The notes beneath the pieces were generated by a model. The model searched no databases, was not told the origin of the DNA, and saw only the letters and a list, made by a program, of their open reading frames with translations. The translations under genes and the position numbers were made by a program. Below are positions 8,054-60,537 of a stretch of DNA of 64,000 nt, piece by piece; position 1 is the first letter of the stretch, and every line of letters starts with the position of its first letter. The stretch comes from Daucus carota subsp. sativus (Eukaryota; Streptophyta; Magnoliopsida; Apiales; Apiaceae), in NCBI RefSeq assembly GCF_001625215.2, contig NC_030383.2, positions 59,758,949-59,822,948 on the forward strand, read 5' to 3'.

Positions 8054-11000
8054 ATGGCTGAAGCAGTAGTGTCAATTGTGGTGGCAAGGCTTACTGATTT
8101 ATTGAATGAAGAACCCGTGGCTCTTCATTCACTGAAGGATGAAATTCAACAAGTGGTGAGCAAGCTCGAGTTGATGAAGACATTCTTACGGGATGCTGAT
8201 TCCAGGATAAGTGAGGATCAAGTTCGGACTTTGGTTGCTGAAATACGAGCACTTGCTTATGATGCTGAACATGTTGTTGAAAGCTTTATTGTTAAAGCTT
8301 CATCCTCTGCAAGAAACAGAAGGAAACAAGCAATCAAGATCAAAGATATACAAAGCAAGATTGCTCTACTCTCTGATCGCATTCGTGATAATAATATTAA
8401 GTCAACATCAGAATCATCAAATTCATCGTCTGAAGCACCTGGAAAGCTAAAGCGATTTCACTCCTTCACAACCATGGAGCCAGAGATATTTGTTGGATTT
8501 CATGGAGCCGTTGATCAACTGGTGGGACATTTGGTGGATGGAAGTGATGATCGTTACCCGCTTATCTCTATTTGTGGAATGGGTGGTCTAAGTAAGACAA
8601 CTCTTGCTCAAAAAATATATAATCATCCAACCATTAAAGCATCCTTCGCTGGTTTAGCCTGGGTTTCCATTTCGCAGAAGTGGCAAAAGAAACTTGTGTT
8701 GCAGCGAATACTGATATGTCTCATCCATGAAAAGAAAGAGGAAATTCTTACTTGGGACGATGACAAGTTAGTGGAGAATCTGCTAGAAATTCAGCAGAGG
8801 AAAAAATGCTTGATAGTCCTTGATGACATATGGACTACTGATGCTTGGGATTCTATGAAATCGGCCTTCACAACTGAAACATCTCTGAGCAAATTAATGC
8901 TTACCAGCCGTAATGTGGAGGTTGCTGAGCATGTAAATCGAGAAGGATTCATATACCAACCAGAACGCCTAAATGAAGAACAGAGTTGGGAGCTACTTAA
9001 GTTGAAAGCAGTTCCCAGAGGATATCATCTAGGTAGATACTTTACTTGCATTTATTATGTTTCATTCACTAGTACATATAGGTACACATCCACTACAAAG
9101 AATGAAGTTCAAGAATATACTAGATCTGTTTCAACTCAGATGACATATGTGAAGTTAATAGTGTAGACTTGGAAATTCCAGATTTAGTCTAGTATAACTT
9201 GTTTCGTGATTTTAAACTTGCAATTACAAAAGCTGTTTAAAAACCTATCGACAAGTAATTTTTTTACTAAGAAAAGAGGGTGAAATATCTTCGACATTCA
9301 ACCCTTGATTACATTTAGTGGTTCATCTATTATAAAGGCATAGCGAGAAATTATTTTATTAGTCTATATGCATTTGTCTGCACATAATATGTATGTGTTT
9401 GTGATTCTTTGTTCTTGTGTGTTACAGATTCCAAAGAAATTTTGTCAGAGATGGAAAAATTGGGAAGAGAAATGGTTAAAAAATGTGCCGGTCTTCCACT
9501 AGCTATAGTCATTTTAGGCGGAATTCTTGTAACAAAACTTTCACTGATGGAGTGGGAGACGGTTTATACTGATAGTTTAAGTCCCCCGGAGAAGGGAAAA
9601 GGATTGGGAGAAGTTCAGCAAAGAGAATTATTTCATGTTCTACTTTGGAGTTACAATGATTTACCCCCACAATTAAAGCCATGTTTTTTGTATTTAGGTA
9701 AATTTGGTGAAGATGAACAGATAGAAGCAGAGACTCTATATCAGTTATGGATTGCAGAAGGGATGGTACTGTCGACTGATAAAAGGGAAGGAGAGACAAT
9801 GATGCAAGTAGCTGAATCGTATATGGGGGAACTGGTCCATAGGAGTATGGTTCAAGTGACATATCAAGATATGGAAAACTCGTGTACAAAGATAAAATCT
9901 TCCTCACTTCATGACCTTATGAGAGACCTATCTCTGTACCAAGCGAAAGCAGAAGATTTTTTTGAAGTTCTTGATCTTCGAAAAAGAAACGATTTGCATC
10001 CCACTCCTTCGACAGATTTCAGGTCGGTTGACACTCAACAACTTGTAGTTTATTATGATGAGGTACAAATAAGCAAAGAAATTGAATCCTACTTTGTTAA
10101 GAAATCCGATCAACAATATCGTTCAATGTTCCTGTTAAGCGACGGTGTATTCACTTGCTTTAGGTGGCCACTTTTGCCGAAAGTAGTTGGGTCACATGTT
10201 GCCAATTTCAGGTTCCTCAGAGTTTTTTCCTTGGAAAATGCTAAAGTAGATGGTATACTTTATCCTAGAAGTTTTGTGAGAGCTTTAGGAAGTCTTTTGT
10301 ACTTGAGATATCTCAGTGTAAGCATGGTGCTACTCCAAACTCTCAAACTAAGAGGGGTGTATTGGATTGGGATTTTAAAGCATTTTTTTGCATTCATAAA
10401 ATCCGAGGTTATTCGATTGGGATTGTTTGAAATCCATTAAAATCTTGAGGTATTCAATTGGGATTTTAAATTATGCTACAAAATCCGGTGGTATTCAATT
10501 GGGATTTTAAATTATGCTTTAAAATCCGATGGTATTCAATTGAGATTCTTTAAAATCCATTAAAATCTGATGGTATTCAAATGCTGATGGATTTTTTTGC
10601 ATTTCATAAAATGATGGATTTTGTGGCATTCTTCAGTGTATTTTAAGTTTTTTGAAATCCCATCAAAATCAATGGGATTTTGAAGCATTGTGCTTAAATC
10701 ATATAAACTCTGCGACATTTTATTAAGAATCCGCACAAAATCAAAATCACACGCAATCCATTAAAATCCATAGACTAAAAACAATCCATTAAAATCCCAA
10801 TCGAATACACCCCGTAAATCTATTCGATCGTATATCTATTCCATCATGGTTTTCAAGAAATATTCTGGGCAAGATGGGACATTTGCGGCATTTGTACTTG
10901 CCTCATACTTCTCTTACATCTATAAATGATCAAAAATTAGGGTTTGATGGGTTGGGCAAGTTAGAGACACTGGAGAACTTCAGTAATCTGTGGTGTGAGG

Positions 11001-11731
11001 CTAAGGATCTTCCGAAACTAATCAATCTTCAGAAACTAACATTAGTAGTAGCCGGTGTTCATGATGATGTGGAAGAGACCATGAAAAATCTGGCAGCATT
11101 AGCCTTGTCATCATCTTCAAATCTCCGGTACTTGGGCCTTTCTCTTTTTCTAGTTGATCAACCGGGAGATAAAGTGAGAGAGTTGTTTTGGGATTATAAT
11201 TCCATCCTTCAGAGATTAAGCATAAGTGGTCGGCTTGCAGAATTGGCTCAATTATTTGAGAACCAACCGGGGAATATTATGAATAATCATGTTGAAGAAT
11301 CTTCAATTCGTATCACTTCCTTGAGGCTATGGTTATCGCTCCTGGGAGATGACCCAATGCCAGTACTGGAGAAGATTCCTACACTGCGTATTCTTGGTTT
11401 ATTCACAGATACATTTTTGGGGAAGGAGATGGCGTGCTCGGCCATGGGTTTCCCTAAACTAACCGATCTTGTACTGGCCGACCTCCCCAACTTGGTTAAA
11501 TGGAATATAGAGGAAGGCAGCATGCCCGTTCTCACCAAGTTAAAGATTAGGCGTTGTTGGATGTTAGAGGAGCTTCCAGAAGGTCTGGTATTTCTCACTT
11601 CCCTTCAGCGTATAAGGTTCTACAATATGCCTACAGATTTCATACAGAAATTCCACATGGAAGATGGCAAACAAGGACAGGACTTTTACAGAGTTGCTCA
11701 CGTTCCTGAGCTTGCTATTTTGAGTGAGTAG
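8054..11731 (+). pseudogene. NLR1: CC-NB-ARC-LRR immune receptor, interrupted by a MITE in the LRR exon
   Basis: Exon 1 8054-9032, intron 9033-9427 (GT..AG), exon 2 from 9428. The CC domain starts MAEAVVSIVVARLTDLL and has AYDAEHVVESF as its EDVID-type motif. The NB-ARC has KCLIVLDDIW (kinase 2), GLPLAIVILGG and LHDLMRDL (MHD position). The P-loop reads GMGGLSKTT, with Ser for the glycine before the catalytic Lys, so nucleotide binding is doubtful. A MITE at 10352-10814 breaks exon 2. Reading through it, the frame ends at 10440 after the first LRRs, a product of roughly 660 residues. Beyond it the LRR frame resumes in phase and runs to 11731. Before the MITE, about 13 residues present in the paralogues (NVWLALIPSIKN region) are deleted. 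A truncated CNL could still be made. Confidence 0.88.
10352..10814. mobile_element. 463-bp Tourist/Harbinger-like MITE inside NLR1
   Basis: Ends are GGGGTGTATTGGATTGGG and CCCAATCGAATACACCCC, flanked by TAA at 10349-10351 and 10815-10817. Internally a GGTATTCAATTGGGATTTTA unit is repeated in tandem. The uninterrupted site is preserved in NLR2, NLR3, NLR4 and NLR5. Removing the element with one TAA keeps the NLR1 frame, so the coding sequence was probably open when it inserted. Confidence 0.93.
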
Positions 11732-12079: not shown

Positions 12080-12450
12080 ACGATAAATGTCATGTCCTCT
12101 TGATGATGGCACTATAAAAATTAACATAGACGGGGCTCTATTTTATGAAAAGCAGAGTTAATAGTTTCTCTGGCGTCGCTACGAAATATTTGAGCCATTC
12201 ACGTCTGATTGGATTACAGCATACCATAATAACTTAGAACTAGGGAATGGGACTACCATAAACACCTGATAGTGCAAATCAAGTGATACTAGCTCCTCCA
12301 GGTTACTCATATACAATACTCAATCATTGATTGGCGACAAATAACTTTCGATATGGATTCATTATCAACTTTAATCTGTTCCAAGAATCAGTATCAGATC
12401 AAGCTGCACAGAGAGAGCATCAAAACCAAAGGCTTGTTGAATAGGATTAT
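12080..12450 (-). pseudogene. Collapsed remains of the RNase H fragment and an F-box B gene
   Basis: 12090-12135 matches the plus-strand RNase H-like fragment (DGTIKINIDGAL-type sequence). From about 12165 to 12300 the minus strand matches F-box B, including the region that gives ESKSLWTL-like residues in intact copies, and 12410-12440 matches its middle. Large internal deletions leave no frame. It shows that the NLR1 unit once also carried the F-box part of the module. Confidence 0.65.
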
Positions 12451-13134: not shown

Positions 13135-16100
13135 ATGGCTGAAGCAGTAGTGTCAAAAGTTGTGGCAAGGCTTACTGATTTATTGGTTGAAGAACCGGTG
13201 GCTCTTGATGGACTCAAGGATGAAATTCAACAAGTGGTGAGCAAGCTCAAGTTAATGAAGACATTCTTAAGGGATGCTGATTCGAGGATGAGTGAGGATC
13301 AAGTCCGGACTTTGGTTGCTGACATACGAGCACTTGCTTATGATTCTGAACATGTTGTAGAAAGCTTTATTGTTAAACCTTCATCCTCTACAAGAAACAG
13401 AAGGAAACAAGCGATCAAGATCAAAGATATAGAAAACAAGATTTCTCTACTCTCTGATCGCATTCATGACAATAATATTAAATCAACATCAGAATCATCA
13501 AATTCATCGTCTGAAGCACCTGGAAAGCTAAAGCGGTTTCACTCTTTCACAACCGCGGAGCCAGAGATATTTGTTGGATTTCATGGAGCCGTTGATCAAC
13601 TGGTGGGACATTTGGTAAATGAAAGTGATGATTGTTACCCGCTTATCTCTATTTGTGGAATGGGAGGTCTAGGTAAGACAACTATCGCTCAAAAAATATA
13701 CAATCATCCAACCATTAAAGCAACCTTTGCTGGTTTAGCCTGGGTTTCCATTTCGCAGAAGTGGCAAAAGAAACTTGTGTTGCAGCGAATACTGGTATGT
13801 CTCATCCATGAAAAGAGAGAGGAAATACTTACTTGGGACGATGACAAGTTAGTGGAGAATCTGCTAGAAATCCAGCAGAGGAAAAAATGCTTGATAGTCC
13901 TTGATGACATATGGACTACTGACGCTTGGGATTCTATGAAATCGGCCTTCACAACTGAAACATCTGTGAGCAAATTAATACTTACCAGCCGTAATGTGGA
14001 TGTTGCTGTGCATGTAAATCCAGCAGGATTCATATACCAACCAGAATGCCTAAATGCAGAACAAAGTTGGGAGCTACTTAAGTTGAAAGCAGTTCCCAGA
14101 GGATATCATCGAGGTAGATACTTTACTTTGCATTTATTATGTTTCATTCACTATAGTACATATAGGTACACATCCACTACAATGAATGAAGTTCAAGAAT
14201 ATATAAGATCTGTTTCAATTCAGATGATATATGTAAAGTTAATAGTGTAGACTTGGAAATTCCAGATTTAGTCTAGTATAACCTGTTTCGTGATTTCAAA
14301 CTTGCAATTACAAAAGCTGTTTGAAAACCTATAGACAAGTAATTTTTTACTAAGAAAAGAGGGTGAAATATCTTCGACAGTCAACCCTTAATTACAGTGT
14401 ATATGCATTTGTCTGTACATTATATGTATGCGTTTGTGATTCTTTGTTTTTGTGTGTTACAGATTCCAAAGATATTTTTACAGAGATGGAAAAAATGGGA
14501 AGAGAAATGGTTAAAAAATGTGCCGGTCTTCCACTAGCTATAGTCATTTTAGGCGGAATTCTTGTAACAAAACCTTCAGTGATGGAGTGGGAGAAGGTAT
14601 ATGCTGATAGTTTATGGTCCCTGGAAAAGGGAAAAGGATTGGGAGAAGATCAGCAAAGAGAATTATTTCATGTTCTACTCTGGAGTTACAATGATTTACC
14701 CCCACAATTAAAGCCATGTTTTCTGTATTTAGGTAAATTTGGTGAAGATGAACAGATAGAAACAGAGACTCTATATCAATTATGGATTGCAGAAGGGATG
14801 GTACTGTCGACTGATAAAAGGGAAGGAGAGACAATGATGCAAGTAGCTGAGTCGTATATGGGGGAGCTGGTCCGTAGGAGTATGGTTCAAGTAACGTATC
14901 AAGACATGGAAAACTCGCGTACAAAGATAACATCTTCCTCACTTCATGACCTTATGAGAGACCTGTCTCTCTCCCAAGCAAAAGAAGAAGATTTTTCTGA
15001 AGTTATTAATCTTCGAGAAGGAAAAGATTTTCATCTCAATCCTTCAGCAGATTTCAGGTCGGCTGAAACTCGACAACTTGTAGTTTATTATGATGAGGAA
15101 GATATAAGCAAACAAATGAAATCCTACTTTGTCAAGAAATGCAAGCAACAACAATATCGATCAATGTTACTATTCAGTGAGGGTGTATTCACTTACTGTT
15201 GGTGCCCACGTTTGCCGAAAGTAGTGGGGTCACATGTTGGCAATTTCAGGTTCCTAAGAGTTTTTTCCATGGAAAATGCTAGAGTAGAAGGTGCACTTTA
15301 TCGTAGAAGTTTTGTGAGAGCATTAGGAAGCCTTGTGTACTTGAGATATCTTAGTGTGAGGAATGTGTGGTTGGCTTTGATTCCATCTATAAAGAACATG
15401 GTGCTACTCCAAACTCTCAAATTAGATCTACGCCTTCCTATATCTATTCCATCATGGCTTTCAAGAAATATTCTGGGCAAGCTGGGACATTTGCGGCATT
15501 TGTATTTGCCTCCTAGTGAATGGACAGCTCCAAAGAAACAAAAATTAAGGTTTGATGGGTTGGGCAAGTTAGAGACATTGGAGAACTTTAGAAATATGTG
15601 GTGTGAGGCTCAGGATCTTCCGAAACTAATCAATCTTCAGAAACTAACATTAGAAGTAGCCGGTGTTTATGATGATGTGAAAGAGGCCCTGAAAAATCTG
15701 TCAGCACTAGCCTTGTCATCATCTTCAAATCTCGCCTACTTGGGACTTTCTCTTGTTTTATACAATCAACCAGGAGAGAAGGCGGGAGAGTTGTGGGATT
15801 TTAATTTCATCCTTCAGAAATTAAGCATAACTGGTCAGCTTGTAGAATTGGCTCAATTATTTGAGAACCAACCGCGGAATATCATCAATAATCATGTTGA
15901 AGAATCTTCAATTCGTATCACTTCCTTGACGTTACGTTCATCGCTCCTGGCAGATGACCCAATGCCAGTACTAGAGAAGATTCCTACGCTGTGTAATCTC
16001 GATTTATTCTTAGACTCATTTGTGGGGAAGGAGATGGTGTGCTCGTCCATTGGTTTCCCGAAACTCACCAGTCTTAAACTGCTGCACCTCCCTAACTTGG

Positions 16101-16330
16101 TGAAATGGAATATAGAGGATGGCAGCATGCCCCTTCTCACCAAGTTGTACATTGATTGTTGTTGGATGTTAGAGGAGCTTCCAGAAGGCATAATATTTCT
16201 CACTTCCCTTCAGCATTTTGAGTTACGCGATATGCCTGCAGATTTCATACACAAACTCTGCACGGTAAATGGCAAACAAGGACAAGACTTTTACAAAGTT
16301 GCTCACGTTCCTGACTTGTCTATTATCTAA
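13135..16330 (+). CDS. NLR2: CC-NB-ARC-LRR disease-resistance protein, intact
   Basis: Exon 1 13135-14113, intron 14114-14462, exon 2 14463-16330; the join after GYHR restores a GAT codon and gives 948 residues. Order: CC domain (1-110, EDVID-type motif AYDSEHVVESF), NB-ARC with P-loop GMGGLGKTT, kinase 2 KCLIVLDDIW, RNBS-B KLILTSRN, GLPLAIVILGG, RNBS-D CFLYLGKF and MHD-position LHDLMRDL, then an LRR domain over roughly the last 400 residues. It belongs with RPP13/RPP8-like CNLs, cytosolic pathogen sensors that trigger hypersensitive cell death. Two oddities: Lys at residue 8 in the otherwise hydrophobic N-terminal helix (MAEAVVSKVVARL), and TSVSKLIL where NLR3 has TSGSKLIL. No stop or frameshift. 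Confidence 0.93.
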
Positions 16331-17169: not shown

Positions 17170-17725
17170 CCTGAACTTATTACACTCGAATCTCACACAA
17201 GTTTTAGATGATAATAGTACAATCACAAACCAGCTAGCTAGCTCCAACGGAATTCAGATTCAGAGCATAAAACGAAACCTTTTTCTTTATTGTCAGATAG
17301 TTTAAATAAAACCTTAAAGTAAAACCAGCAATTAATTAAACTGCCATGCATATGAGAAGTGCAGGTACAGAACACCTGTGTGTCTAACAAGATACGCCCA
17401 TCAATAAGTTTTAAAGCATCCAACTATTGCGAACCCCGAACTTATTATACTCGGATCTAACTCAAGTTTGAGGTGATAATAATACAATTACAGAGCAGCC
17501 AACCCCAACATCAACAATATTCAGCAGGGCAATCAGAATTTAGAAAACAGTTCAAACGAAACCTTAAAGTAAAACCAGCAACTAAATTACCTTGAATATG
17601 AGAATTGCAGGTAAAAAACACCAGAAATGAAACTCCTGAACTTATCTGCAACGTTAATTCGCTATGTGTCTAACAAGATACGCCCATCACTCAATAAGTT
17701 TCAAAGCATCCAACTATTGTGAGGA
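17170..17725. repeat. Tandem duplication of the F-box A 3' region
   Basis: Two diverged copies of about 260 bp (17170-17430 and 17435-17725). Each runs from CTGAACTTATTA-like sequence to TAACAAGATACGCCCATCA and AAGCATCCAACTATT. The second copy leads into the FB-A1 stop codon. The arrangement is repeated beside FB-A2 (39250-39828) and partly beside FB-A4 (54050-54560), so it predates the module duplication. Confidence 0.75.
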
Positions 17726-18823
17726 TAGAAAATTACCGAACCTGGTAATTATAAGCGGTTTAGAACCTTTGATTGAAGCACCGGTCTCTGTGTATTTAAA
17801 AAATGTTTTCAGCCCCGCAACTGGAACCGGAATATGTTTGTACTCTTTCTTCCGGTAGTCATACAAGAAGAGTTCCTCAGGACACTCAAACTCGAAGAGT
17901 TCATCATCAGGACACACAAACTCTTTCACTCCAGAAAACAGTCCACCACCCAAATAAGAATATACCCAGATTATTTCACCTAGTTCAATATTTAACTTCT
18001 TAGTCCAAGAAATTTTGCCATCAATATGATCTAATGTCCATAGACATATTTCTGATCTTTCCCCAATGGATTCAAAGATGACCCCTGCAGAACCTTCAAA
18101 ATCCAAAATCTTTGAGTAATATGACACGGAACAAGGTAGTGGGACCACCGTACACACCTCATTGTGCAAATCAAACGAAACTATATCTCTGTGACCACCT
18201 GCATACAACGCTCCATTTATCACAGGACCAAGTTCAAAAGTTAAGTCACAGATGCTAATGATGTCATGACAATGAATCTCTTTCCAGGAATCACTATTTG
18301 TTGAATATATCTGCAAAATTGGTGCATCACTAGTAAAAATGTTTTCGTGTAGAAAGCGGACAACCTTGTAGTCATCGTAGATGCTATCAAAAGCAAATGC
18401 TAGGGTACCGTGAACATCGTCTCCCAAAGCCCTGGCATAACGGGGAAATCTAGGAAGTTCCTTGCACTGCTTGGTTGTTGGGTTCCAGAGGTAACAGTAT
18501 ATATCGAATACTAGACATATAATGCCATTAGAGGAACCAATAACTGTGAACAGGCGCGGCTTAAGTAGATAACATTTATAGCTGGGACAGACTAGTCGAG
18601 TAATGTCTGTCAAAACCGATGGTTCACCAATCATCAACACTGAAGCTTCCTCGTCCGCTCTAATACGTCTGTAGTACGAGAGTGTTTTAATAAATTCGGG
18701 GTCTGAGATAATAGATCGCCACGACTTGCAGACCGAGCTGCACCTCGTCAATGACTTGGCGGGAAGCCGATAAAATATTTCAGTAACCATCTCATCAGGC
18801 AAAACAAACTTTGAGCATGCCAT
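17714..18823 (-). CDS. FB-A1: F-box protein with F-box-associated (FBA) domain, intact
   Basis: A single 369-codon open frame. The F-box is at residues 6-46 ([35 protein letters not shown]). The rest is an FBA-type domain: [73 protein letters not shown]. By family such proteins bind SKP1 through the F-box and hold substrates for an SCF E3 ubiquitin ligase; Arabidopsis CPR1 is one that controls NLR levels. The substrate here is unknown. It is convergent with NLR2, with its stop 1.4 kb from the NLR2 stop. Relative to FB-A4 it has 10 extra residues from a small duplication ([16 protein letters not shown]). Confidence 0.92.
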   Translation of the reverse strand: MACSKFVLPDEMVTEIFYRLPAKSLTRCSSVCKSWRSIISDPEFIKTLSYYRRIRADEEASVLMIGEPSVLTDITRLVCPSYKCYLLKPRLFTVIGSSNGIICLVFDIYCYLWNPTTKQCKELPRFPRYARALGDDVHGTLAFAFDSIYDDYKVVRFLHENIFTSDAPILQIYSTNSDSWKEIHCHDIISICDLTFELGPVINGALYAGGHRDIVSFDLHNEVCTVVPLPCSVSYYSKILDFEGSAGVIFESIGERSEICLWTLDHIDGKISWTKKLNIELGEIIWVYSYLGGGLFSGVKEFVCPDDELFEFECPEELFLYDYRKKEYKHIPVPVAGLKTFFKYTETGASIKGSKPLIITRFGNFLSSQ

Positions 18824-18863
18824 TATGTTCCAAGACGGTCGTCGAGCTCACGAAAAATTACAC

Positions 18864-20039: not shown

Positions 20040-20262
20040 TTCAAGGTGGTAATGGACTTCCTCATGTACCCAATGAATATATCTCAATCGAATTTGTTCT
20101 CCAGGATTCGTTTGTGTTTTCAAGGGTTAATTTTTGTTGATCTTACACCTCTGTGCTGCGTCATGAGGGCAGCTAAACTGGTAGTACAGCAGTGGCAAAA
20201 TGCTCGGAGCTTTGAAGTTTTGCACTATTAAAATTAACATGGACGGGGCTCTATTTTTTTAA
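20040..20262 (+). pseudogene. RNase H-like retroelement fragment (module marker)
   Basis: Reads FSRIRLCFQGLIFVDLTP and MRAAKLVVQQWQNARSFEVL, then a shortened match to the KINMDGAL sequence seen at 42960. The longer copy at 42743 reads AATWSCPPDDGTIKINMDGA, typical of the start of plant RNase H domains in non-LTR elements. It occurs at the same place in every F-box module (also 42720, 48360 and 58090). Confidence 0.6.
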
Positions 20263-20490
20263 AAGCAGAGTTAATAGTTTCTCTTGCTTAAGTCTAACCC
20301 CAAGGGATCCAAAATCCAAAATCTCTGGGTATCTTTCCATGGATCTAGGGATGGGGACTACCGTACACACCTCATTGTGCAAATCAAATGAAACTATGTC
20401 TCCCTGATGACCCGTGTACAAAACTCCAGGATCAGTATTTGTCGAATATAGCTGCAGAACTAGAGGCAACATGTTGTCTAATTAGGGATG
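20263..20490 (-). pseudogene. F-box C fragment
   Basis: Minus-strand frame with [29 protein letters not shown] and CTVVPIPRSMERYPEILDF, an FBA-domain piece diverged from subfamilies A and B. The F-box and most of the protein are missing. Paralogous fragments lie at 45091, 48640 and 58393. Confidence 0.75.
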
Positions 20491-20889: not shown

Positions 20890-22206
20890 AGATAGAAATC
20901 ATTGAAACACTTGGTTTGAACCCTTCGATTGAAGATAAGGTCTCTGTGTATTTAAGGAATGATTTCCGTCTCCTACCTCGACTAGTTTAAAAGCTTCTCT
21001 TTGTATAATCATACAAGACTGTAGTATGGCCTTCAAGTCATTCTCTGCCCCAAAAAAGTCCACTACCTAAGTAAGACTTTATCCATGGTAACTTATCATG
21101 CATAATGAGCTTTCTAGTCCAAGAGGCTTCGCCATGAATATTATCTAGTGTCCACAGACTTTTCGAGCCATTCTCATCTGATTGGATCACAGCAACAGAG
21201 CCATTGAATTCCGAAACATCAGACATTAAGGTTGTGTTCACTTGGATGGAATGGAATGAGAGGAGAATGGAATGAAAAATTATATAGAAATTTTATGGAG
21301 AAACAAGAAAGTATGAGCTAATAGTGACTAAATATGAATGAGTTAATTTTTTTTGTGATTAAGATTGTAAAGAAATATGATGTAGAGATGGAATGAGCAT
21401 TCCTTCCAAAACATGTGGGGTAGAATTCTAGTTAAAATAGTATGAATGGAATGATTGAAGGAATGAAAATTGTATACATTTTGTTAGATCAACACCATTT
21501 TTGAGTACAAAATTCATTCCATTCTCCCTCCATTCCATTCACTCCAAGTGAACACAACCTAATAACCTAGAATAAGGGAATGCATGCACTGTAAACACCT
21601 CATAGTGCAAATCAACCGAGACAAGCCGTGCCTCATGACCCATATACAATACTCCATCAATGACAGGACCAAATTTCAAACGCGGCTCAAGCAGCTCTCT
21701 AGATATGGACGTATCACAAACATGAATCTCTTTCCACGCATTAGTATTTGCGGAATCTGGTACAAAATTATCAGCGATAAAGACAGAATCGAGTAATAGA
21801 ATGCCTTCTAGGAGTGAATGAACCTAAAAACCTAATAACTTTGTAGTCATTAGAGAGAGAATCAAAACCAAAGGCCATTCGATGAACTTGATACATATAA
21901 TACCATTACACGAACCAACAACCTCAAAACGGTGTGCTATATTTCGGATATAATATATAGCAGAGTCTTTAGAGACAAATTGAAGCTGTTGATAATCATC
22001 AACTTCCCCAGAAATCGATAGTAGTGAAGCATTCTTATTAGCCCTAAATTGGGTGTAATCCATGTGAGCCTTAATGAAATTCGGTTCGGATATAATGGAG
22101 AGCCATGACTTGCAAACAGACCTAAAGCGGAGCAATGTCCTCACGGGAAGCCAACAAAGTATTTCAATACCATCTTTTCCGGCAAAACGTACTTCAATCT
22201 TGCCAT
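20890..22206 (-). pseudogene. F-box B pseudogene, first copy
   Basis: The N terminus starts at 22206, and WLPVRTLLRFRSVCKSWLS is the F-box helix region, followed by VVGSCNGIIC. About 100 bp coding for the WNPSTRQAKR region is deleted, frames shift several times, and a 329-bp MITE (21231-21559) sits in the 3' half. The C-terminal part continues down to about 20890. It is the first of three F-box B copies; the others are at 49276 and 59403. Confidence 0.82.
21231..21559. mobile_element. 329-bp Harbinger-like MITE in an F-box B pseudogene
   Basis: Ends GGTTGTGTTCACTTGGA and CCAAGTGAACACAACC, flanked by TAA (21228-21230 and 21560-21562). The paralogue near 49660 keeps the empty site (CTTAATAACCTAG). 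A second copy of the same length lies at 58444-58772. Confidence 0.92.
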
Positions 22207-39828: not shown

Positions 39829-40925
39829 AGAAAATTACCGAACCTGGTAATTATAAGCGGTTCAGAACCTTTGATTGAAGCACCGGTCTCTGTGTATTTA
39901 AAAAATGTTTTCAGCCCCGCAACTGGAATCGGAATATGTTTGTACTCTTTCTTCCGGTAGTCATACAAGAAGAGTTCCTCAGGACACTCAAACTCGAAGA
40001 GTTCATCATCAGGACACACAAACTCTTTCACTCCAGAAAACAGTCCACCACCCAAATAAGAATATACCCAGATTATTTCACCTAGTTCAATATTTAACTT
40101 CTTAGTCCAAGAAATTTTGCCATCAATATGATCTAATGTCCATAGACATATTTCTGATCTTTCCCCAATGGATTCAAAGATGACCCCTGCAGAACCTTCA
40201 AAATCCAAAATCTTTGAGTAATATGACACGGAACAAGGTAGTGGGACCACCGTACACACCTCATTGTGCAAATCAAACGAAACTATATCTCTGTGACCAC
40301 CTGCATACAACGCTCCATTTATCACGGGACCAAGTTCAAAAGTTAAGTCACAGATGCTAATGATGTCATGACAATGAATCTCTTTCCAGGAATCACTATT
40401 TGTTGAATATATCTGCAAAATTGGTGCATCACTAGTAAAAATGTTTTCGTGTAGAAAGCGGACAACCTTGTAGTCATCGTAGATGCTATCAAAAGCAAAT
40501 GCTAGAGTACCGTGATCATCGTCTTCCAAAGCCCTGGCATAACGGGGGAATCTAGGAAGTTCCTTGCACTGCTTGGTTTTTGGGTTCCAGAGGTAACAGT
40601 ATGTATCCCATGCCAGACATATAATGCCATTAGAGGAACCAATAACTGTGAACAGGCGCGGCTTAAGTAGATAACATTTATAGCTGGGACAGACTAGTCG
40701 AGTAATGTCTTTCAAAATCGTTGGTTCACCAATCATCAACACTGAAGCTTCCTCGTCCGCTCTAATACGTCTGTAGTACGAGTGTGTTTTCATGAATTCG
40801 GGGTCTGAGATAATAGATCGCCACGACTTGCAGACCGAGCTACACCTAATCAGTGATTTAGCAGGAAGCCAATAAAATATTTCAGTAACCATCTCATCAG
40901 GCAAAACAAACTTTGAGCATGCCAT
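39816..40925 (-). CDS. FB-A2: F-box/FBA protein, intact, near-duplicate of FB-A1
   Basis: 369 codons. F-box [18 protein letters not shown] with [17 protein letters not shown], then the FBA-type domain ([56 protein letters not shown]). Predicted SCF substrate adaptor, target unknown. The C-terminal two thirds are almost identical to FB-A1, including the 10-residue [16 protein letters not shown] duplication. The N-terminal third ([24 protein letters not shown]) instead matches FB-A4 and the fragment at 46673-47203, which suggests gene conversion. Convergent with NLR5. Its predicted leader intron (40963-42183) is enlarged by a 614-bp MULE. Confidence 0.92.
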
Positions 40926-42362: not shown

Positions 42363-42719
42363 TATCGGTTAAGCATTTGTGATTTGAGTATCAAAACATG
42401 GATAATTTCTTCCTATATACTCATGTCGTACACACGTGACATGACGAGAATAATATAGCTTTTTTTAAGTTACTTTGTTGAGTTACGCATTTGTCAAAGG
42501 AGTATCGTATGTAAGATGAAAGTTGAATACCATAGTAATTAGGTGAAGCGAATGCCAAATTTATTGGGCTTATTGAAATTTTAATATTATATGCAATATT
42601 GTATAATATATTTTTTATTGACATTTAAAGACTCGTTAAGAGTTTCCTCTTTTCATGTGATTAAAGTGTTGATGGATTCTTTGGGTAAAATATGAAGATA
42701 TCTTAGTTGTTGTCGTGAA

Positions 42720-42996
42720 TTCAAGGTGTTAATGGATTTCTCATGTACCAAATGAATATATCTTTATCGAATTTGTTCTCCAGGATTCGTTTGTATTTTC
42801 AAGGGTTGATTTTTGTTGATCTCACACCTTTGCGCTGCGTCATGAGGGCAGCTAAACTGGTAGTACAGCAGTGGGAAAATGCTCGGAGCTCTGAAGTTTT
42901 GAATTCTGCTGTAAATTTTACTGCAAAGGATGATGCAGCAACTTGGTCATGTCCTCCTGATGATGGCACTATAAAGATTAACATGGACGGGGCTCT
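42720..42996 (+). pseudogene. RNase H-like retroelement fragment, best preserved copy
   Basis: Reads AAKLVVQQWENARSSEVLNS, then DAATWSCPPDDGTIKINMDG in one frame. The W-PP-G-IKINMDGA signature marks the start of an RNase H domain of plant non-LTR retroelements. It is cut at 42996 by the CACTA insertion. No catalytic core remains. Confidence 0.65.
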
Positions 42997-45090: not shown

Positions 45091-45745
45091 TTACAGCAGA
45101 GTTAATAGTTTCTCTTGCTTAAGTCTAACCCCAAGGGTATGACAAAAAAAAAAAAGTCTAACCCCAAGGGATTCAAAATCCAAAATCTTTGAGTATCTTG
45201 CCGTGGAACAAGGGATGGGGACTACCGTACACACCTCATTGTGAAAATCAAACGAAACTATATCCCCCTGACAATCCGTGTAAAACACTCCAGGAATCAG
45301 TATTTGTTGAATATAGCTGCAGAAGTACTGGTACAGCACCAGTAATAGTGCTCTCGCATAAAAGTCGAAGAACTTTGTAGTCACCGGAGATATTATCAAA
45401 AGCAAATGCTTGATTACCTTGATGTTTGCTATTGTAAGCCTTCGTGTAACGGGAAATCCTGGAAGTTCTTTGCACTGGTTGGTTAATGGGTTCCAGAGAT
45501 AACAAAGTATATCACATACCAGACATATAAGGCCAATACAGGTACCAATAACTGTGAGCTGACTTGTACAGGAACCAAAAACTTTGAAAGGGTTTGGCAT
45601 ATAAAGATAACATTTGTAGCCTGGACAGAGTAATCGAGAAGAGCTATCCAAATGCGAGGTAGCAATCATCATTAGTGAAGCTTCCTCATCTGTCATAATC
45701 TGTCTAGTACGATTGAGTTCCTTGGTATAACAGTGTTCCTTGCTC
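45091..45745 (-). pseudogene. F-box C pseudogene, longest copy
   Basis: Minus-strand sequence with DEEASLMMIATSHLD, LCPGYKCYLYMPNPF, CYLWNPLTNQCKELPGFP, AFDNISGDYKVLRLL, LYSTNTDSW and [19 protein letters not shown], all FBA-domain text, but spread over at least two frames and without an F-box start. It defines a third F-box subfamily in the cluster. Confidence 0.82.
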
Positions 45746-46173
45746 TCTATACGGAGGTAGACGGTTGAAATTAAGGGTGTCTAGGTACGCCTAATTATTA
45801 GAATAAATAAAGATGATGATATATTGCTTCTACGTTTTTCAAGTATTGTATATCAGAAGATCTTCTGTATATCATCGCTATGGGCCAGTTCAACAATATA
45901 ATAAATGATGTCCTAAATCAAAATTTTTGGTTGTGGCTCCTTGTTAAACCCTCTTATCCAAGTCTGACTTTTTCATGCCAAGTCATATATATGAGCTAAT
46001 CAGTAATTGAACTTTGCACTCACATGCCAAGATGCCAACTTAGCGCAAAATGCTCATAGACTAATATGCCATGTTTGTTTCAGATCTATATGAAAGTCAA
46101 CTACCATAAGTTTGTCACCAGTTCTCTGAATTTTAGCGACATAAGTGGTTCTGACAAAGAAGGCAAAGAATTT
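45746..46173. other. Spacer and CNL leader before NLR6
   Basis: Non-coding. From about 46040 it matches the other CNL leaders (ATGCCATGTTTGTTTCAGAT, CACCAGTTCTCTGAATTTTA). Confidence 0.55.
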
Positions 46174-46672
46174 CAAATGGCTGAAGCGATAGTGTAAATT
46201 GTTGTGGCAAGACTTACTGATTTATTGATTTAAGAACCCGTGGCTCTTCATGGACTCAAGGATGAGATTCAAGAAGTGGTGACCAAGCTCAAGTTGATGA
46301 GCACATTCTTACGAGATGCTGATTCGAGGATAAGTGAGTATCAAGTCCGGACTTTGGTTGCTGACATACGAGCACTTGCTTATGATACTGAACATGTCGT
46401 AGAAAGCTTTATTGTTAAAGCTTCATCCTCTGCAAGAAACAGAAGGAAACAAGCAATCAAGATCAAAGATATAGAAAGCAAGATGTCTCTGCTCTCTGAT
46501 CGTATTCGTGATAATAATATTAAATCAACATCAGAATCATCAAATTCATCGTCTGAAGCACCTGGAAAGCTAAAGCGATTTCACTCTTTCAAAACCATTG
46601 AGCCAGAGATATTTGTTGGATTTCATGGAGTCGTTGATCGAATGGTGGGACATTTGGTGAATGAGAGGTATC
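46174..46672 (+). pseudogene. NLR6: N-terminal CNL stump fused to an F-box fragment
   Basis: Begins with the CNL start (MAEAIV), has TAA after six codons and another early stop (LLI-stop-EPVAL), then is open from the CC domain to the start of the NB-ARC ([18 protein letters not shown]). It stops at about 46672, where sequence changes in mid-exon to the minus-strand F-box A gene. P-loop onward is lost. Confidence 0.88.
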
Positions 46673-47203
46673 ACTATTTGCTGAATATATCTGCAAAATT
46701 GGTACATCACCAGTAAAAATGTTTTGGGGTATAAACCGGACAACCTTGTAGTCATCGGAGATGCTATCAAAAGCAAATGCTAGAGTACCGTGATCATCGT
46801 CTTCCAAAGCCCTGGCATAGCGGGGGAATCTAGGAAGTTCCTTGCACTGCTTGGTTTTTGGGTTCCAGAGGTAACAGTATGTATCCCATGCCAGACATAT
46901 AATGCCATTAGAGGAACCAATAACTGTGAACAGGCGCGGCTTAAGTAAATAACATTTATAGCTGGGACACACTAGTCGAGTAATGTCTATCAAAACCGAT
47001 GGTTCACCAATCATCAACACTGAAGCTTCCTCGTCCGCTCTAATACGTCTGTAGTATGAGTGTTTTTTCATGAATTCGGGGTCTGAGATAATAGATCGCC
47101 ACGACTTGCAGACCGAGCTACACCTCATCAGTGATTTAGCAGGAAGCCAATAAAATATTTCAGTAACCATCTCATCAGGCAAAACAAACTTTGAGCATGC
47201 CAT
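46673..47203 (-). pseudogene. F-box A N-terminal fragment fused tail-to-tail with NLR6
   Basis: The reading frame starts at 47203 with [17 protein letters not shown] and stays open through YSANSDT, about 177 residues containing the complete F-box and the first part of the FBA domain. It then runs into NLR6 antisense sequence, adding about 27 foreign residues and stopping at 46589. The predicted leader intron and the tandem repeats upstream are intact, so this truncated F-box protein might be expressed. Confidence 0.85.
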
Positions 47204-48359: not shown

Positions 48360-48635
48360 GTCGCGAATTCAAGGTGGTAATGGATTTCTCATGTACCGAA
48401 TGAATATATCTTAATCGAATTTGTTCTCCAGGATTCGTTTGTGTTTTCAAGGGTTAATTTTTGTTGATCTTACACCTCTGTGCTGCGTCATGAGGACAGC
48501 TAAACTGGTAGTACAGCAATGGCAAAATGCTCGGAGCTCTGAAGTTTTGAATTCTGCTGTAAACTTGGTCATGTCCTCCTGGTGATGGCACTATTAAAAT
48601 TAACATGGACGGGGCTCTGTTTCATTAAAAGCAGA
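48360..48635 (+). pseudogene. RNase H-like fragment (module marker)
   Basis: Matches 42720-42996 with internal deletion: GGATTCGTTTGTGTTTTCAA, the ACTGGTAGTACAGCAATGG part, then ATTAACATGGACGGGGCTCT. No open frame. Confidence 0.6.
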
Positions 48636-48639
48636 GTTA

Positions 48640-48905
48640 ATAGTTTCTCATGCTAAAGTCTAACCCCAAGGGATCCAAAATCTCTGAGTATCTTGCCATG
48701 GAACTAGGGATGGAGACTACTGTACACACTGCATTGTGCAAATCAAACGAAACTATATCTCCCTCATGACCCGTGTACAACACTCCAGGAATCAGTTTTC
48801 GTCGAATATATCTGCAGAACTGGTACACAGGTACAGCACCAGTAGTAGTGCTCTCGCATAAGATACCAAAACTAGAGGCAACGCATTATCTAATCAGGGA
48901 TGAGT
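48640..48905 (-). pseudogene. F-box C fragment
   Basis: Encodes [20 protein letters not shown] and CTVVSIPSSMARYSEI on the minus strand. Paralogous to 20263-20490 and 58393-58970. Confidence 0.72.
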
Positions 48906-49275: not shown

Positions 49276-50403
49276 TCAATTCACAGCAGGATTTAGATCT
49301 TTTTCCCTCAAGGAATGAGGATGAAAGATAGAAATCATTGAAACACTTGGTTTGAACCCGTCGATTGAAGCTAAGGTCTCTGTGTATTTAAGGAATGATC
49401 TCGTTCTACCTTGTATAGTTTCATAGCTTTTCTTTGTATAATCATACAAGACTGTAGTATGTCCTCCAAGTCCTTCTCTGCCCCAAAAAAGTCCACAACC
49501 CAAGTAAGACTTTATCCATGGTAACTCATCATGCATAATGAACTTTCTAGTCCAAGAGACTTCGCCATGAATATTATCTAGTGTCCACAGACTTTTCGAG
49601 CCATTCACATCTGATTGGATTACAGCAACAGAGCCATTAAATTCCAAAACATCAGACCTTAATAACCTAGAACGAGGGAATGTGAGCACTGTAAACACCT
49701 CATAGTGCAAATCAAATGAAACAAGCCGTGTCTTATTACCCATATACAATAATCCATCAATGACAGGACCAAATTTCAAACGTAGCTTAAGCAGCTCTCT
49801 AGCTATGGACGTATCACAAACATGAATCTCTTTCCAAGCATCAGTATTTGCGGAATATAGCTGCAAAACTGGTACAAAATTATCAGCGTTAAAGATAGGA
49901 GTAATAAAAGGCCTTCTACGAGTGAATGGACCTAAAAACCTAATAACTTTTTAGTCATTAGAGAGCAAATCAAAACCAAAGGCCATTTGATGAACTTGAT
50001 ACATACAATTCCAATCCCTCTGATTCTTCAAAATTTTGGTTGTTCTTTTGGCTTGCATGGTTGAAGGGTTCCAGAGGAGAAAATGTACATTGTCAACTAG
50101 TAGACAAATAATACCATTACACGAACCAACAATTTCAAAACCGTGTGGTTTATTTCGCAGATAATATTCAGAGTCTTCAGAGACAAATTTAAGCCGTTGA
50201 TCATCAAGTGTCCCAAAAATTATCCGTAGTAGTGAAGCATTCTTATTAGGCTTATCCATGTGAGCCTTAATGAAATTGGGTTGGGATATAATGGAGAGCC
50301 ATGACTTGCAAACAGACCTAAAGCGGAGCAATGTCCTCACGGGAAGCCAACAAAGTATTTCATTAACCATCTCTTCCGGCAAAGCGTACTTGAATCTTGC
50401 CAT
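49276..50403 (-). pseudogene. F-box B, second copy: one nonsense codon
   Basis: ATG at 50403 (MARFKYALPEEMVNEILCWL), F-box helix LLRFRSVCKSWLSIIS, then VGSCNGIICLLV, LLWNPSTMQAKR and FGFDLLSND. At 49951-49953 the Tyr codon of the conserved NDYKVIRF segment is TAA. Beyond it the frame is open to DLNPAVN at 49276. A single substitution therefore separates this copy from a full-length FBA-type F-box protein of about 375 residues. If the read is correct the product is a 150-residue stub with the F-box. Confidence 0.88.
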
Positions 50404-53200: not shown

Positions 53201-53204
53201 TAAT

Positions 53205-53273
53205 GTCATCAGTGGAAGCCAACAAAGTATTTCAATTACCATCTTTTCCGGCAAAACGTACTTGAATCTTGCC
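53205..53273 (-). pseudogene. F-box B 5' relic
   Basis: Encodes MARFKYVLPEKMVIEILCWL from 53273 downward, then leaves the homology. It is only the first part of an F-box. Confidence 0.75.
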
Positions 53274-53760
53274 ATTATAATATTTATATATAATTTTATC
53301 ACTTATATTTTAATTTAATTGAAATACAAACCGGTCATACTAATCGAAGTTTTACATATTTTGAATTAATTGATAATAAAAAGTTTATTAAAACACATTA
53401 TATAGACTCGTAGAATTATACAACCGGCGTATAAAACTCGACCGATAAATAAAATTATTAATATTTCCGTTTCAATATAATAGTAATAATAATAAAATGA
53501 AAAATCTGTGAAGGGATAGTGTGCTAAAGCATCGAAAAAAAGTATGTAAATAGCCCCATAAGATGAATATACATGAATATTTAAAAAGAAAAACAATCCT
53601 ACCAAGGAAGCAATTCCATTAAAGAATAAAAGAAAAAGAAAAAGAATCTTGCAAAATGTATCTAAGGCAAAAACTGGATTTAAATAGAAATAATTAAAGA
53701 ATTCATCCTACTTTATTTGGGGAGCTACGATAATCACACTTGACAGCAAAATAAAAAATA

Positions 53761-54556: not shown

Positions 54557-55636
54557 CTATTGCGAGGATAGAAAATTACCGAACCTATTAATTCTAAGCC
54601 GTTCAGAACCTTTGATTGAAGCACCGGTCTCTGTGTATTTAAAAAATGTTTTCAGCCCCGCCATTGGAACCGGAATATGTTTGTACTCTTTCTTCCGGTA
54701 GTCATACACGAAGAGTTCATCAAGACACACAAACTGTTTCACTCCAGAAAACAGTCCACCACCCAAATAAGAATATACCCAGATTATGTCACCTAGTTCA
54801 ATATTTAACTTCTTAGTCCAAGAAATTTTGCCATCAATATGATCTATTGTCCATAGATATTTTTCTGATCTTTCCCCAATGGATTCAAAGATGACCCCTG
54901 CAGAACCTTCAAAATCCAAAATATCTGAGCTATATGACACGGAACAAGGTAGTGGGACCACCGTACACACCTCATTGTGCAAATCAAACGAAACTATATC
55001 TCCTTGACCACCTGCATATAACGCTCCATTTATCACAGGACCAAGTTCAAAAGTTGAGTCACACATGTCAATGATGTCATGACAATGAATCTCTTTCCAG
55101 GTATCACTATTTGCTGAATATATCTGCAAAATTGGTACATCACCAGTAAAAATGTTTTGGGGTATAAACCGGACAACCTTGTAGTCATCGGAGATGCTAT
55201 CAAAAGCAAATGCTAGAGTACCATGATCATCGTCTTCCAAAGCCCTGGCATAACGGGGAAATCTAGGAAGTTCCTTGCACTGCTTGGTTGTTGGGTTCCA
55301 GAGGTAACAGTATGTATCCCATGCCAGACATATAATGCCATTAGAGGAACCAATAACTGTGAACAGGCGCGGCTTAAGTAGATAACATTTATAGCTGGGA
55401 CAGACTAGTCGAGTAATGCCTTTCAAAACCAATGGTTCACCAATCATCAACACTGAAGCTTCCTCGTCCGCTCTAATACGTCTGTAGTATGAGTGTGTTT
55501 TCATGAATTCGGGGTCTGAGATAATAGATCGCCACGACTTGCAGACCAAGCTACACCTCATCAGTGATTTAGCAGGAAGCCAATAAAATATTTCAGTAAC
55601 CATCTCATCAGGCAAAACAAACTTTGAGCATGCCAT
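54557..55636 (-). CDS. FB-A4: F-box/FBA protein, intact
   Basis: 359 codons. F-box at residues 6-46 ([35 protein letters not shown]), then [73 protein letters not shown] and the end [10 protein letters not shown]. It lacks the 10-residue acidic duplication of FB-A1 and FB-A2 and so probably shows the ancestral length. Predicted SCF adaptor, substrate unknown. No CNL lies directly downstream; that part of the module is missing here and the flank instead holds a MITE and an F-box B relic. Predicted leader intron 55655-56244, ending 19 bp before the ATG. Confidence 0.92.
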   Translation of the reverse strand: MACSKFVLPDEMVTEIFYWLPAKSLMRCSLVCKSWRSIISDPEFMKTHSYYRRIRADEEASVLMIGEPLVLKGITRLVCPSYKCYLLKPRLFTVIGSSNGIICLAWDTYCYLWNPTTKQCKELPRFPRYARALEDDDHGTLAFAFDSISDDYKVVRFIPQNIFTGDVPILQIYSANSDTWKEIHCHDIIDMCDSTFELGPVINGALYAGGQGDIVSFDLHNEVCTVVPLPCSVSYSSDILDFEGSAGVIFESIGERSEKYLWTIDHIDGKISWTKKLNIELGDIIWVYSYLGGGLFSGVKQFVCLDELFVYDYRKKEYKHIPVPMAGLKTFFKYTETGASIKGSERLRINRFGNFLSSQ

Positions 55637-58089: not shown

Positions 58090-58392
58090 ATCTTAGCTCT
58101 TGTCGCGAATTCAAGGTGGTAATGGATTTCTCATGTACCGAATGCGGAATGCATATATCTTAATCGAATTTGTTCTCCAGGATTCGTTTGTGTTTTCAAG
58201 GGTTAATTTTTGTTGATCTTACACCTCTGTGCTGCGTCATGAGGACAGCTAAACTGGTAGTACAGCAATGGCAAAATGCTCAGAGCTCTGAAGTTTTGAA
58301 TTCTGCTGTAAACTTGGTCATGTCCTCCTGGTGATGGCACTATTAAAATTAACATGGACGGGGCTCTGTCTCATTAAAAGCAGAGTTAATAG
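58090..58392 (+). pseudogene. RNase H-like fragment (module marker)
   Basis: Fourth copy of the fragment described at 42720 and almost identical to 48360-48635, including the same internal deletion. This dates the deletion before that duplication. Confidence 0.6.
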
Positions 58393-58970
58393 TTTCTCTT
58401 GCTAAAGTCTAACCCCAAGGGATCCAAAATCCAAAATCTCTGAGGCTGTGTTCACTTCATGGAATGGAATGAGGGGAGAATGGAATGAAAAATTATATAG
58501 AAGTGTGAAGGAGAAAGAAGAAATCATGAGATAATAGTTACAAAATATGAATGTAGTTAATTTTTTTGTGAGAAAGATTGTGAAGAAACATGATGTTGAA
58601 ATGGAAAGAGCATTCCTTCCAAAACATGTGGGTTAGAGTTATAGTTAAAATAATAAGGTTGGAATGATTGAAGGAATGACAATTATATACATTTTCTTTG
58701 ATCAACATCATTTTAGAGTACAAACTTCATTCCATTCTCCCTCCATTCCATTCACTCCAAGTGAACACAACCTGAGTATCTTGCCATGGAACTAGGGATG
58801 GAGACTACCGTACACACCGCATTGTGCAAATCAAACGAAACTATATCTCCCTCATGACCCGTGTACAACACTCCAGGAATCAGTATTCGTCGAATATAGC
58901 TGCAGAACTGGTACAGAACCAGTAGTAGTGCTCTCGCATAAGAATCAAAAACTAGAGGCAACACGTTGTC
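58393..58970 (-). pseudogene. F-box C fragment split by a MITE
   Basis: 58776-58970 encodes [35 protein letters not shown] and SIPSSMARYS; 58393-58443 is its continuation on the other side of the MITE at 58444-58772. The unsplit paralogue is at 48640-48905. Confidence 0.78.
58444..58772. mobile_element. 329-bp Harbinger-like MITE in an F-box C fragment
   Basis: Ends GGCTGTGTTCACTTC and AAGTGAACACAACC, flanked by TGA (58441-58443 and 58773-58775). The paralogue at 48677-48690 (TCTCTGAGTATCTTG) is the empty site. Same family and same length as 21231-21559. Confidence 0.92.
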
Positions 58971-59402
58971 TAATCAGGGATGAGTATTGCGTCACTTCAA
59001 GACCTCTATTAGGGAAAGTTCATCAATATCCTAAAATGATGCCCTAATCAACATTTCCATTTTCCAAACCTTATAATTTTGTGCCATTGTGAATGCTACA
59101 TGTAAATGCTTCAGAGTGTTGATAGTGGACAATGTTCGAACCTACAATTTCATGAAATGCACGGAAGCCATTCTTGGATTACAAACGCATGCTTACTTGA
59201 TAGGTTTACTTAAATTTACATAAACAATTCAACTTAAGATTCAAAAATTAGACCACAGTACAAAACTAAAACATGAAGCGCAAAATGGAAAAGAAAACAG
59301 AGAAGCACCTTATATGTGAGGATTCAGGTGCAGAACTCCTAGGACTAGTTTTATGGACTTAAACACATGTCTAACAACGTATGATATGACCATTTTCTAA
59401 CA

Positions 59403-60537
59403 TCAATTCACAGCAGGATCCAGATCTTCTACCCTCGAGGAATGAGATTGAAAGATAGAAATCATGGAAACACTTGGTTTGAACCCTTCGATTGAAGCTA
59501 AGGTCTCTGTGTATTTAAGTAATGATCTCCGTCTCCTACCTCGACTAGTTTCATAGCTTCTCTTTGTATAATCATACAAGACTGTAGTATGGCCCTTCTC
59601 TGCCCCAAAAAAGTCCACTACCCAAGTAAGACTTTATCCATGGTAACCTATCATGCATAATGAACTTTCTAGTCCAAGAGACTTGGCCATGAATATTATC
59701 TAGTGTCCACAGACTTTTCGAGCCATTCACATCTGATTGGATTACAGCAACAGAGCCATTAAATTCCAAAACATCAGACCTTAATAACCTAGAACGAGGG
59801 AATGCGAGCACTGTAAACACCTCATAGTGCAAATCAAATGAAACAAGCCGTGCCTTATTACCCATATACAATACTCCATCAATGACAGGACCAAATTTCA
59901 AACGTAGCTTAAGCAGCTCTCTAGCTATGGACGTATCACAAACATGAATCTCTTTCCAAGCATCAGTATTTGCGGAATATAGCTGCAAAACTGGTACAAA
60001 ATTATCAGCGTTAAAGATAGGAGTAATAAAAGGCCTTCTATGAGTGAATGGACCTAAAAACCTAATAACTTTGTAGTCATTAGAGAGAGAATCAAAACCA
60101 AAGGCCATTTGATGAACTTGATACATACAATTCCAAGCCCTCTGATTCTTCAAAATTTTGGTTGTTCTTTTGGCTTGCCTAGTTGATGGGTTCCAGAGGA
60201 GAAAACGTATTTTGTCAACTAGTAGACAAATAATACCATTACACGAACCAACAATTTCAAAACGGTGTGGTTTATTTGGAAGATAATATACAGAGTCTTT
60301 AGAGACAAATTTAAGCCGTTGATCATCAAGTGTCCCAAAAATTATCCATAGTAGTGAAGCATTCTTATTAGGCTTAATTTGGGTGTAATCCATGTGAGCC
60401 TTAATGAAATTGGGTTGGGATATAATGGAGAGCCATGACTTGCAAACAGACCTAAAGCGGAGCAATGTCTTTACAGGAAGCCAACAAAGTATTTCAATAA
60501 CCATCTCTTCCGGCAAAACGTACTTCAATCTTGCCAT
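59403..60537 (-). pseudogene. F-box B, third copy: frameshift near the C terminus
   Basis: ATG at 60537 (MARLKYVLPEEMVIEILCWL), F-box helix LLRFRSVCKSWLSIIS, then VGSCNGIICLLV, LLWNPSTRQAKR, FGFDSLSNDYKVIRFLG, LYSANTDAWKEI and LWTLDNIHGQVSWTRK. An 8-bp deletion near 59589 shifts the frame after GLFWGRE, so the protein ends at 59572 (322 residues) instead of about 59403. The lost tail (HTTVLYDYTKRSYET to DLDPAVN) is still readable in the next frame. The F-box and most of the FBA domain are intact, so a near-complete protein could function; I call it a pseudogene with reservation. Confidence 0.85.

Follow-up and report, generated by a model that had tools for sequence, protein, structure and literature searches.

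A repeated CNL/F-box block on carrot chromosome 3: a probable mixed birth-and-death cluster with diversifying F-box genes

A 64-kb window of the carrot genome (Daucus carota, NC_030383.2; chr3:59,758,949-59,822,948) contains a cluster in which genes for CNL-type NLR receptors are interleaved with FBA-type F-box genes; unless a chromosome is named, coordinates below are positions in this window. The locus is probably an ordinary mixed birth-and-death cluster similar to the R1 locus of potato, with F-box genes that are selected independently and a linkage of the two families that is mainly due to shared duplication (hitch-hiking). A composite block holding both families is repeated within the window and, in mirror image, further along the chromosome. 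The CNL and F-box A copies do not behave as matched pairs, and F-box A is not a dead passenger, its frames being kept and its F-box being under purifying selection. The presence of functional, diversifying F-box genes within this NLR cluster is likely.

Composition of the cluster

The alternation of plus-strand CNLs with minus-strand FBA-type F-box genes, as originally predicted, was borne out by the copies and pieces mapped in the window. Lengths of products are in amino acids (aa).

CNL1, 8054..11731, plus strand: Rx_N, NB-ARC, winged helix and LRR; exon 2 broken, predicted product ends at 663 aa
RNase-H-like scrap behind CNL1, 12090..12152, plus strand
F-box B scrap behind CNL1, 12188..12340, minus strand: includes a 35-residue weak F-box A match
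CNL2, 13135..16330, plus strand: intact, 948 aa; exon 1 13135-14113, phase-1 intron 14114-14462, exon 2 14463-16330
F-box A2, 17714..18823, minus strand: intact, 369 aa; F-box plus FBA_3 / F_box_assoc_1
RNase-H-like LINE scrap, module 2, 20049..20253, plus strand
F-box C fragment, module 2, 20293..20430, minus strand
F-box B pseudogene, module 2, 21041..22168, minus strand
CNL3, 25086..28390, plus strand: intact, 950 aa; 452 bp intron
CNL3b, 28761..30380, plus strand: 3' half alone, winged helix and LRR
F-box A3 fragment, 31519..31938, minus strand: carries an in-frame stop
CNL4 pseudogene, 33823..37017, plus strand: frame breaks in both exons, stop at codon 177
F-box A4, 39816..40925, minus strand: intact, 369 aa
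RNase-H-like LINE scrap, module 4, 42719..43063, plus strand: longest frame, P0006
F-box C, module 4, 45091..45780, minus strand: F-box-A-like frame without a Pfam F-box match
CNL5 5' fragment, 46177..46665, plus strand: two in-frame stops; abuts truncated F-box A at 46666
F-box A5 fragment, 46667..47203, minus strand: residues 1-179
RNase-H-like LINE scrap, module 5, 48367..48619, plus strand
F-box C fragment, module 5, 48673..48828, minus strand
F-box B5, 49342..50403, minus strand: one in-frame stop
F-box B piece, 53201..53275, minus strand
F-box A6, 54557..55636, minus strand: intact, 359 aa; no CNL piece detected alongside
RNase-H-like LINE scrap, module 6, 58109..58371, plus strand
F-box C fragment, module 6, 58755..58949, minus strand
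F-box B6, 59572..60537, minus strand: open frame, 321 aa

On their exon frames, the CNL copies matched Rx_N, NB-ARC, WH_DRP and LRR_14 above cut-off in Pfam, which places them among the CNL-type NLRs, and their best PDB matches were the solved CNLs NRC4, NRC3 and NRC2. Frame P0001 contains the P-loop-like motif GMGGLGKTT. Two CNLs of the window are intact (CNL2 and CNL3), and splicing of CNL2 was clean, its phase-1 intron falling in the NB-ARC region. Exon 2 of CNL1 is interrupted by an unrelated stretch of ~490 bp (10323-10814).

For the F-box genes A2 and A4, Pfam scores were 46-47 bits for the F-box and 27 bits for FBA_3; the FBA_3 score of A6 lay marginally under the cut-off (20.5 against 20.7 bits). 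TIGR01640 (F_box_assoc_1, NCBIfam) was above cut-off in A2, A4, A6 and B6, and, as expected for the FBA type, the F-box stands at the N terminus ahead of the F-box associated domain. Identity between F-box B and F-box A is about 45-48%; Pfam gave no F-box match for F-box C, whose frame resembles F-box A. Four F-box A frames are intact in total, A2, A4 and A6 in the window and A7 in the second arm described below. Solved structures were matched weakly by sequence and at the F-box end alone (best E value 0.00047), and structure prediction for six F-box A sequences gave a mean pLDDT (per-residue confidence) of 44.8, too poor for a fold search.

A composite module repeated within the window

The order CNL, F-box A, RNase-H-like scrap, F-box C, F-box B is repeated, fully or partially, with CNL and F-box A arranged tail to tail. 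The most complete modules are 2 (13-22 kb) and 5 (46-50 kb), partly as fragments, and modules 1, 3, 4 and 6 are without one or more members. When the window was compared with itself, blocks were colinear across non-coding DNA at 82-97% ungapped identity, far above chance. For example, 18286-21229 and 46666-49662 are 93.3% identical (ungapped), and the CNL2-A2 spacer (16367-17097) matches 38379-39120 at 93.5%. At 46666, the CNL5 5' fragment is fused to the truncated F-box A in a clean deletion junction. The order had been proposed to recur in six intervals; the recurrence itself was confirmed by these colinear blocks, but no CNL piece was found by tblastn in the interval at 54-61 kb, nor anywhere in the window after 46665 (E up to 0.001). 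Behind CNL1 (12090..12340) lie remnants of the RNase-H-like scrap and of F-box B, with no F-box A apart from the 35-residue match listed above.

The plus-strand frame P0006 recurs between F-box A and F-box C in modules 2, 4, 5 and 6, and the second arm has it too, inverted, in its first module. The predicted recurrence of an RNase H fragment at this place was therefore upheld; the RNase H label is likely but weak, because just 17 residues tie the scrap to the open reading frame (ORF) of an upstream long interspersed nuclear element (LINE; ORF 5985-7526; E 0.001, one-sequence search), and the scrap had no Pfam match. No module copy was returned when two parts of this ORF were used as queries; a full-length, more permissive search led to P0006, which recurs. 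The LINE is represented by its 3' part, a 514-aa open frame at 5982-7526 with zf-RVT and RVT_3, directly upstream of CNL1.

The cluster has the composition of a mixed resistance-gene (R-gene) cluster of the potato R1 kind, in that tandem arrays of NLRs and of F-box genes are interspersed within a rearranged region.

A mirror-image second arm

The array extends beyond the window. In the genome searched (441,086,747 bases, 11 contigs), a second arm was located at chr3:60.015-60.053 Mb, ~200 kb downstream, with its CNLs on the minus strand and its F-boxes on the plus strand, a mirror image of the window. In its first module the genes run B, C, A, CNL, the inverse of the window order. Homology of the CNL-F-box A spacer extends across the arms (82-84%); the adjacency of CNL and F-box A is therefore older than the arms, and a single composite ancestor was duplicated and probably inverted. 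The second arm would be explained most simply by an inversion of which one breakpoint lay within the cluster. Beside two further CNLs of this arm, C9 (which carries a stop) and C10 (which is truncated), there are at most F-box B scraps. A 4.14-kb insert at chr3:60,024,842-60,028,984 splits an otherwise stop-free F-box A copy (A8) of this arm.

Apparently different histories of the two families

The original prediction also stated that the two families were duplicated together. The common order, the common CNL-F-box spacer and the inverted second arm agree with this, but strict joint timing was not supported, as synonymous divergence (dS) and trees differ and conversion-like tracts lie over F-box A. 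CNL pairs (53 of 55 had enough codons, in a set that includes an intact copy on chr1) mostly had dS values of 0.13-0.19, in a range of 0.107-0.230 of which both extremes came from the 161-codon fragment C5. The F-box A pairs lay at 0.037-0.129 with A3 left out; this old fragment was at 0.19-0.28 from the other F-box A copies. The F-box A tree split the two arms with 100/100 support, and the CNL tree was star-like, with no starred inner branch. The histories read from dS and trees thus differ between CNL and F-box A, in a comparison where the CNL tree lacks resolution and gene conversion is likely.

Conversion-like tracts were present over F-box A in two of the three block pairs scanned. Between modules 2 and 4, positions 17184-18184 are 99.2% identical, compared with 93.6% in the rest of the block, and in the second arm modules 7 and 8 share an F-box A tract of 96.7% identity, compared with 86.5% (0 of 2000 permutations each). 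A tract over F-box B was shared by module 6 and the second arm (99.5% against 94.5%; 0 of 2000 permutations). The recombination test gave 0 of 500 permutations for F-box A and was borderline for the CNLs (28 of 500 as low). In modules 2 and 4, the CNL end is 85-88% identical and the adjoining spacer about 92-95%; this greater divergence of the CNL end is not expected from a single joint duplication. The pattern is what repeated ectopic exchange would leave, although another cause is possible.

Selection on F-box A and the CNLs

The codon model of F-box A comprised five copies, A8 being included although it is split by an insert, with kappa on a grid and P values from chi-square with one degree of freedom. 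The split at residue 55 follows the Pfam F-box domain. For residues 1-55, omega (dN/dS, nonsynonymous over synonymous divergence) was 0.30, with twice the log-likelihood difference (2dlnL) from omega 1 at 8.49 (P about 0.004). For residues 56-369 it was 1.81 (2dlnL 6.78, P about 0.009). Residues 56-260, a bin chosen after the pairwise data, gave 2.42 (2dlnL 10.36, P about 0.001), and residues 261-369 gave 0.86 (2dlnL 0.13, not significant). A codon bootstrap over all ten pairs for residues 56-260 gave P 0.002. Single pairs showed an excess for A4-A7 (0.005), A6-A7 (0.004) and A6-A8 (0.0006) and none for the other three of the six tested (A2-A6, 0.12; A4-A6, 0.22; A7-A8, 0.47), so the diversifying signal lies between arms and not within them. 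The omega estimate is fragile because there are five copies only, some of them sharing conversion-like tracts.

Coding indels among the four intact F-box A copies were of 3, 3 and 30 bases, all multiples of three, and the flanks carry indels of 1, 2, 4, 5 and 7 bases also. The flanks were compared at fixed lengths and some aligned poorly (68-77%), so all that is firm in this comparison is that the coding indels keep the frame. In the CNLs, the coiled coil had an omega of 0.35 and the NB-ARC part one of 0.38; the LRR value, 0.88, did not differ from 1 (2dlnL 2.99).

These values bear on two alternative explanations. The F-box genes could be a defence arm of their own, that is, SCF adaptors diversifying against pathogen proteins or other fast targets, both families thriving in a recombination-rich region. 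This is a narrower form of the birth-and-death reading, compatible with it and overlapping it in confidence, and is put forward tentatively. The kept frames and the contrast between the F-box and the target part argue for it, and a contrast of this general kind has been reported for unstable F-box genes across plants, in a study that finds the pattern less consistent in FBA than in kelch domains (PMC3719486). The three pairs without excess count against it. Pure hitch-hiking, with the F-boxes as neutral passengers becoming pseudogenes, is improbable. It would account for the truncations, interruptions or stops in most F-box B and C copies and in A3, A5 and A8, as well as for a mean pairwise dN/dS of 0.99 over the whole F-box A gene, but not for four intact F-box A frames with in-frame indels only, and it is already disfavoured by the omega of the F-box domain.

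Survival and linkage of receptors and F-box genes

The suggestion that each receptor is linked to its own turnover adaptor received no positive evidence. Six modules hold both a CNL and an F-box A (2, 3, 4, 5, 7 and 8). Both are intact in module 2 only; modules 3 and 8 have an intact CNL without an intact F-box A, modules 4 and 7 the reverse, and module 5 has neither. Co-survival in one of six modules shows no association, and in this small number the two genes were not kept or lost together.

An intact 948-aa CNL with its intron kept was found on chr1 (C1:35712200; 6201-9412 of a 10-kb stretch), about as close to each cluster CNL as the cluster CNLs are to one another. It is the nearest CNL outside the locus among the matches listed and a dispersed copy made at the DNA level. 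No F-box A was present in the 10 kb fetched, which reach just ~0.6 kb past the CNL end, and the genome search gave no F-box A match nearby among the matches listed. The closest F-box A kin outside the locus among these matches, at chr3:5.97 Mb (54-55% identity), had no listed NB-ARC match within 1.8 Mb. In total, at least 137 F-box places were listed, 13 in the locus and 124 outside, and one of the 124 was within 50 kb of an NB-ARC match. Grouped into 52 clusters, the outside places listed again gave one within 50 kb, compared with a random mean of 1.02. This test used start coordinates, with exon matches of one gene merged but unchecked singly and one end coordinate counted as an extra NB-ARC point. 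There was thus no linkage above chance elsewhere among the matches listed, and the CNL/F-box linkage seems private to the carrot chr3 locus. F-box A looks functional and diversifying and may have a role in immunity, but none of these results singles out the adjacent CNL as its target.

A regulation in cis like that of CPR1 in Arabidopsis, in which F-box A or B would ubiquitinate the CNLs of the cluster and hold down their level, the linkage being selected as the co-inheritance of receptor and brake, is unlikely. CPR1 carries the TIGR01640 domain, as do carrot F-box A and B, and RPS2 is a CNL of a different type. The tail-to-tail position of F-box A beside the CNL and its diversification would also suit such a role. 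Loss of the F-box protein CPR1 is reported to raise SNC1 and RPS2, but CPR1 acts on more than one NLR and its mode of selection is unclear (PMC6032283). The carrot data speak against it at three points: intact CNL and F-box A are not co-retained, no F-box A was detected beside the intact chr1 CNL, and among the matches listed the F-box kin elsewhere show no linkage to NLRs. It is equally doubtful that the composite block is itself the selected unit, with an F-box A pool acting in trans on the CNL family or on effectors that the CNLs recognise, conversion keeping the pool coherent in each arm, selection separating the arms, and the cluster encoding receptors together with a matched degradation system.

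Several points weigh against the reading as a birth-and-death cluster with independent families. F-box proteins can act in trans, so that one adaptor could serve many CNLs; survival therefore need not match module by module, and six modules are few. The approximately unbiased (AU) test did not reject CNL clades matching the F-box arms, because of the poor resolution of the CNL tree (p 0.178 for the arm-2 CNLs, 0.444 for C2+C4 and 0.181 for C7+C8). Modules 5 and 6 showed no conversion-like tract (241 of 2000 permutations), and a comparison of distance matrices for CNL, F-box A and spacer had no power with four modules. The genome matches are lower bounds drawn from the best-scoring candidates, such as the best 109 of 751 for F-box A. 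Diversification of the target-binding part of F-box A beside a near-neutral CNL LRR would also fit co-evolution with the linked CNLs.

Proposed origin and comparison with known systems

Under the birth-and-death reading, a CNL and three FBA-type F-box genes would have become neighbours once, F-box A and F-box C being separated by a dead LINE scrap. The composite block was then duplicated several times in tandem, with a mirror-image arm ~200 kb away that may have been produced by inversion, and unequal crossing-over and deletions could have left the partial modules. The pattern suggests that some F-box A copies within an arm were later homogenised by gene conversion and that the CNLs diverged in a star-like manner, after which the two families would have lived and died independently. 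The four intact F-box A genes are most likely still SCF adaptors facing changing targets, since the F-box is conserved and the target-binding part is diversifying; SCF assembly would be in keeping with the F-box omega of 0.30. A single private CNL next door would be a less likely target for them than pathogen-related proteins or others that change fast.

The R1 homologues of potato are of the CNL type. According to the available part of the report, a hypervariable patch on potato chromosome V holds an inversion together with NBS-LRR R1 homologues, at least 11 F-box genes and pieces of RNase H retroelements (PMC3225836). As in carrot, NLRs are intermingled there with F-box genes and RNase H pieces, with tandem duplication and an inversion breakpoint in the variable region (PMC3225836). 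In contrast to carrot, F-boxes lay on the R1 contig with none found on the r1 contig, and that part of the report describes neither a repeated composite module of fixed order nor selection on the F-boxes (PMC3225836). The carrot genes, which carry TIGR01640, resemble the CPR1/CPR30-SNC1 system of Arabidopsis in so far as an F-box protein there acts on NLRs, according to the text available (PMC6032283). SNC1, however, is a TIR-NLR (PMC10885650), whereas the carrot receptors are CNLs. The accessible text on unstable FBA F-box genes of land plants reports duplication waves, a purified F-box and a diversifying target domain (PMC3719486); the carrot copies differ in travelling in a block with CNLs. 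No report of the carrot chr3 CNL/F-box locus was found in a literature search that had subscription journals largely outside its reach.

The locus suggests that an F-box family within an NLR cluster can remain functional and diversify rather than just decay. It offers a natural test case, with CNL2 and A2 both intact, several modules with one partner, and the unlinked chr1 CNL as a built-in control. If the F-box copies did control the linked receptors, this would explain the F-box genes at some resistance loci and give breeders a reason for moving both together.

Neighbouring regions and other CNLs

Capture of the CNL by a mobile element was considered by aligning the 5' and 3' ends of the copies. 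Homology faded outside the gene, by eye, and no common terminus was seen; a defined element was therefore not supported. For a large CNL cluster at chr2:10.72-13.07 Mb, mostly 59-70% identical to the window CNLs, the matches listed include one distant F-box relative, at 10.78 Mb, and nothing close to F-box A.

The ~190 kb between the arms gave no CNL or F-box copy by tblastn. Most of the stretch that breaks CNL1 (10345-10811) has a 91.6% copy in this region, ~194 kb downstream. The region contains 15 long open frames, of which ten were scanned; one matched no family, and nine matched ordinary families, namely GDSL lipase, PRA1, PX, multicopper oxidase, Na/H exchanger, GH17, ALOG, ubiquitin-activating enzyme and sugar transporter.

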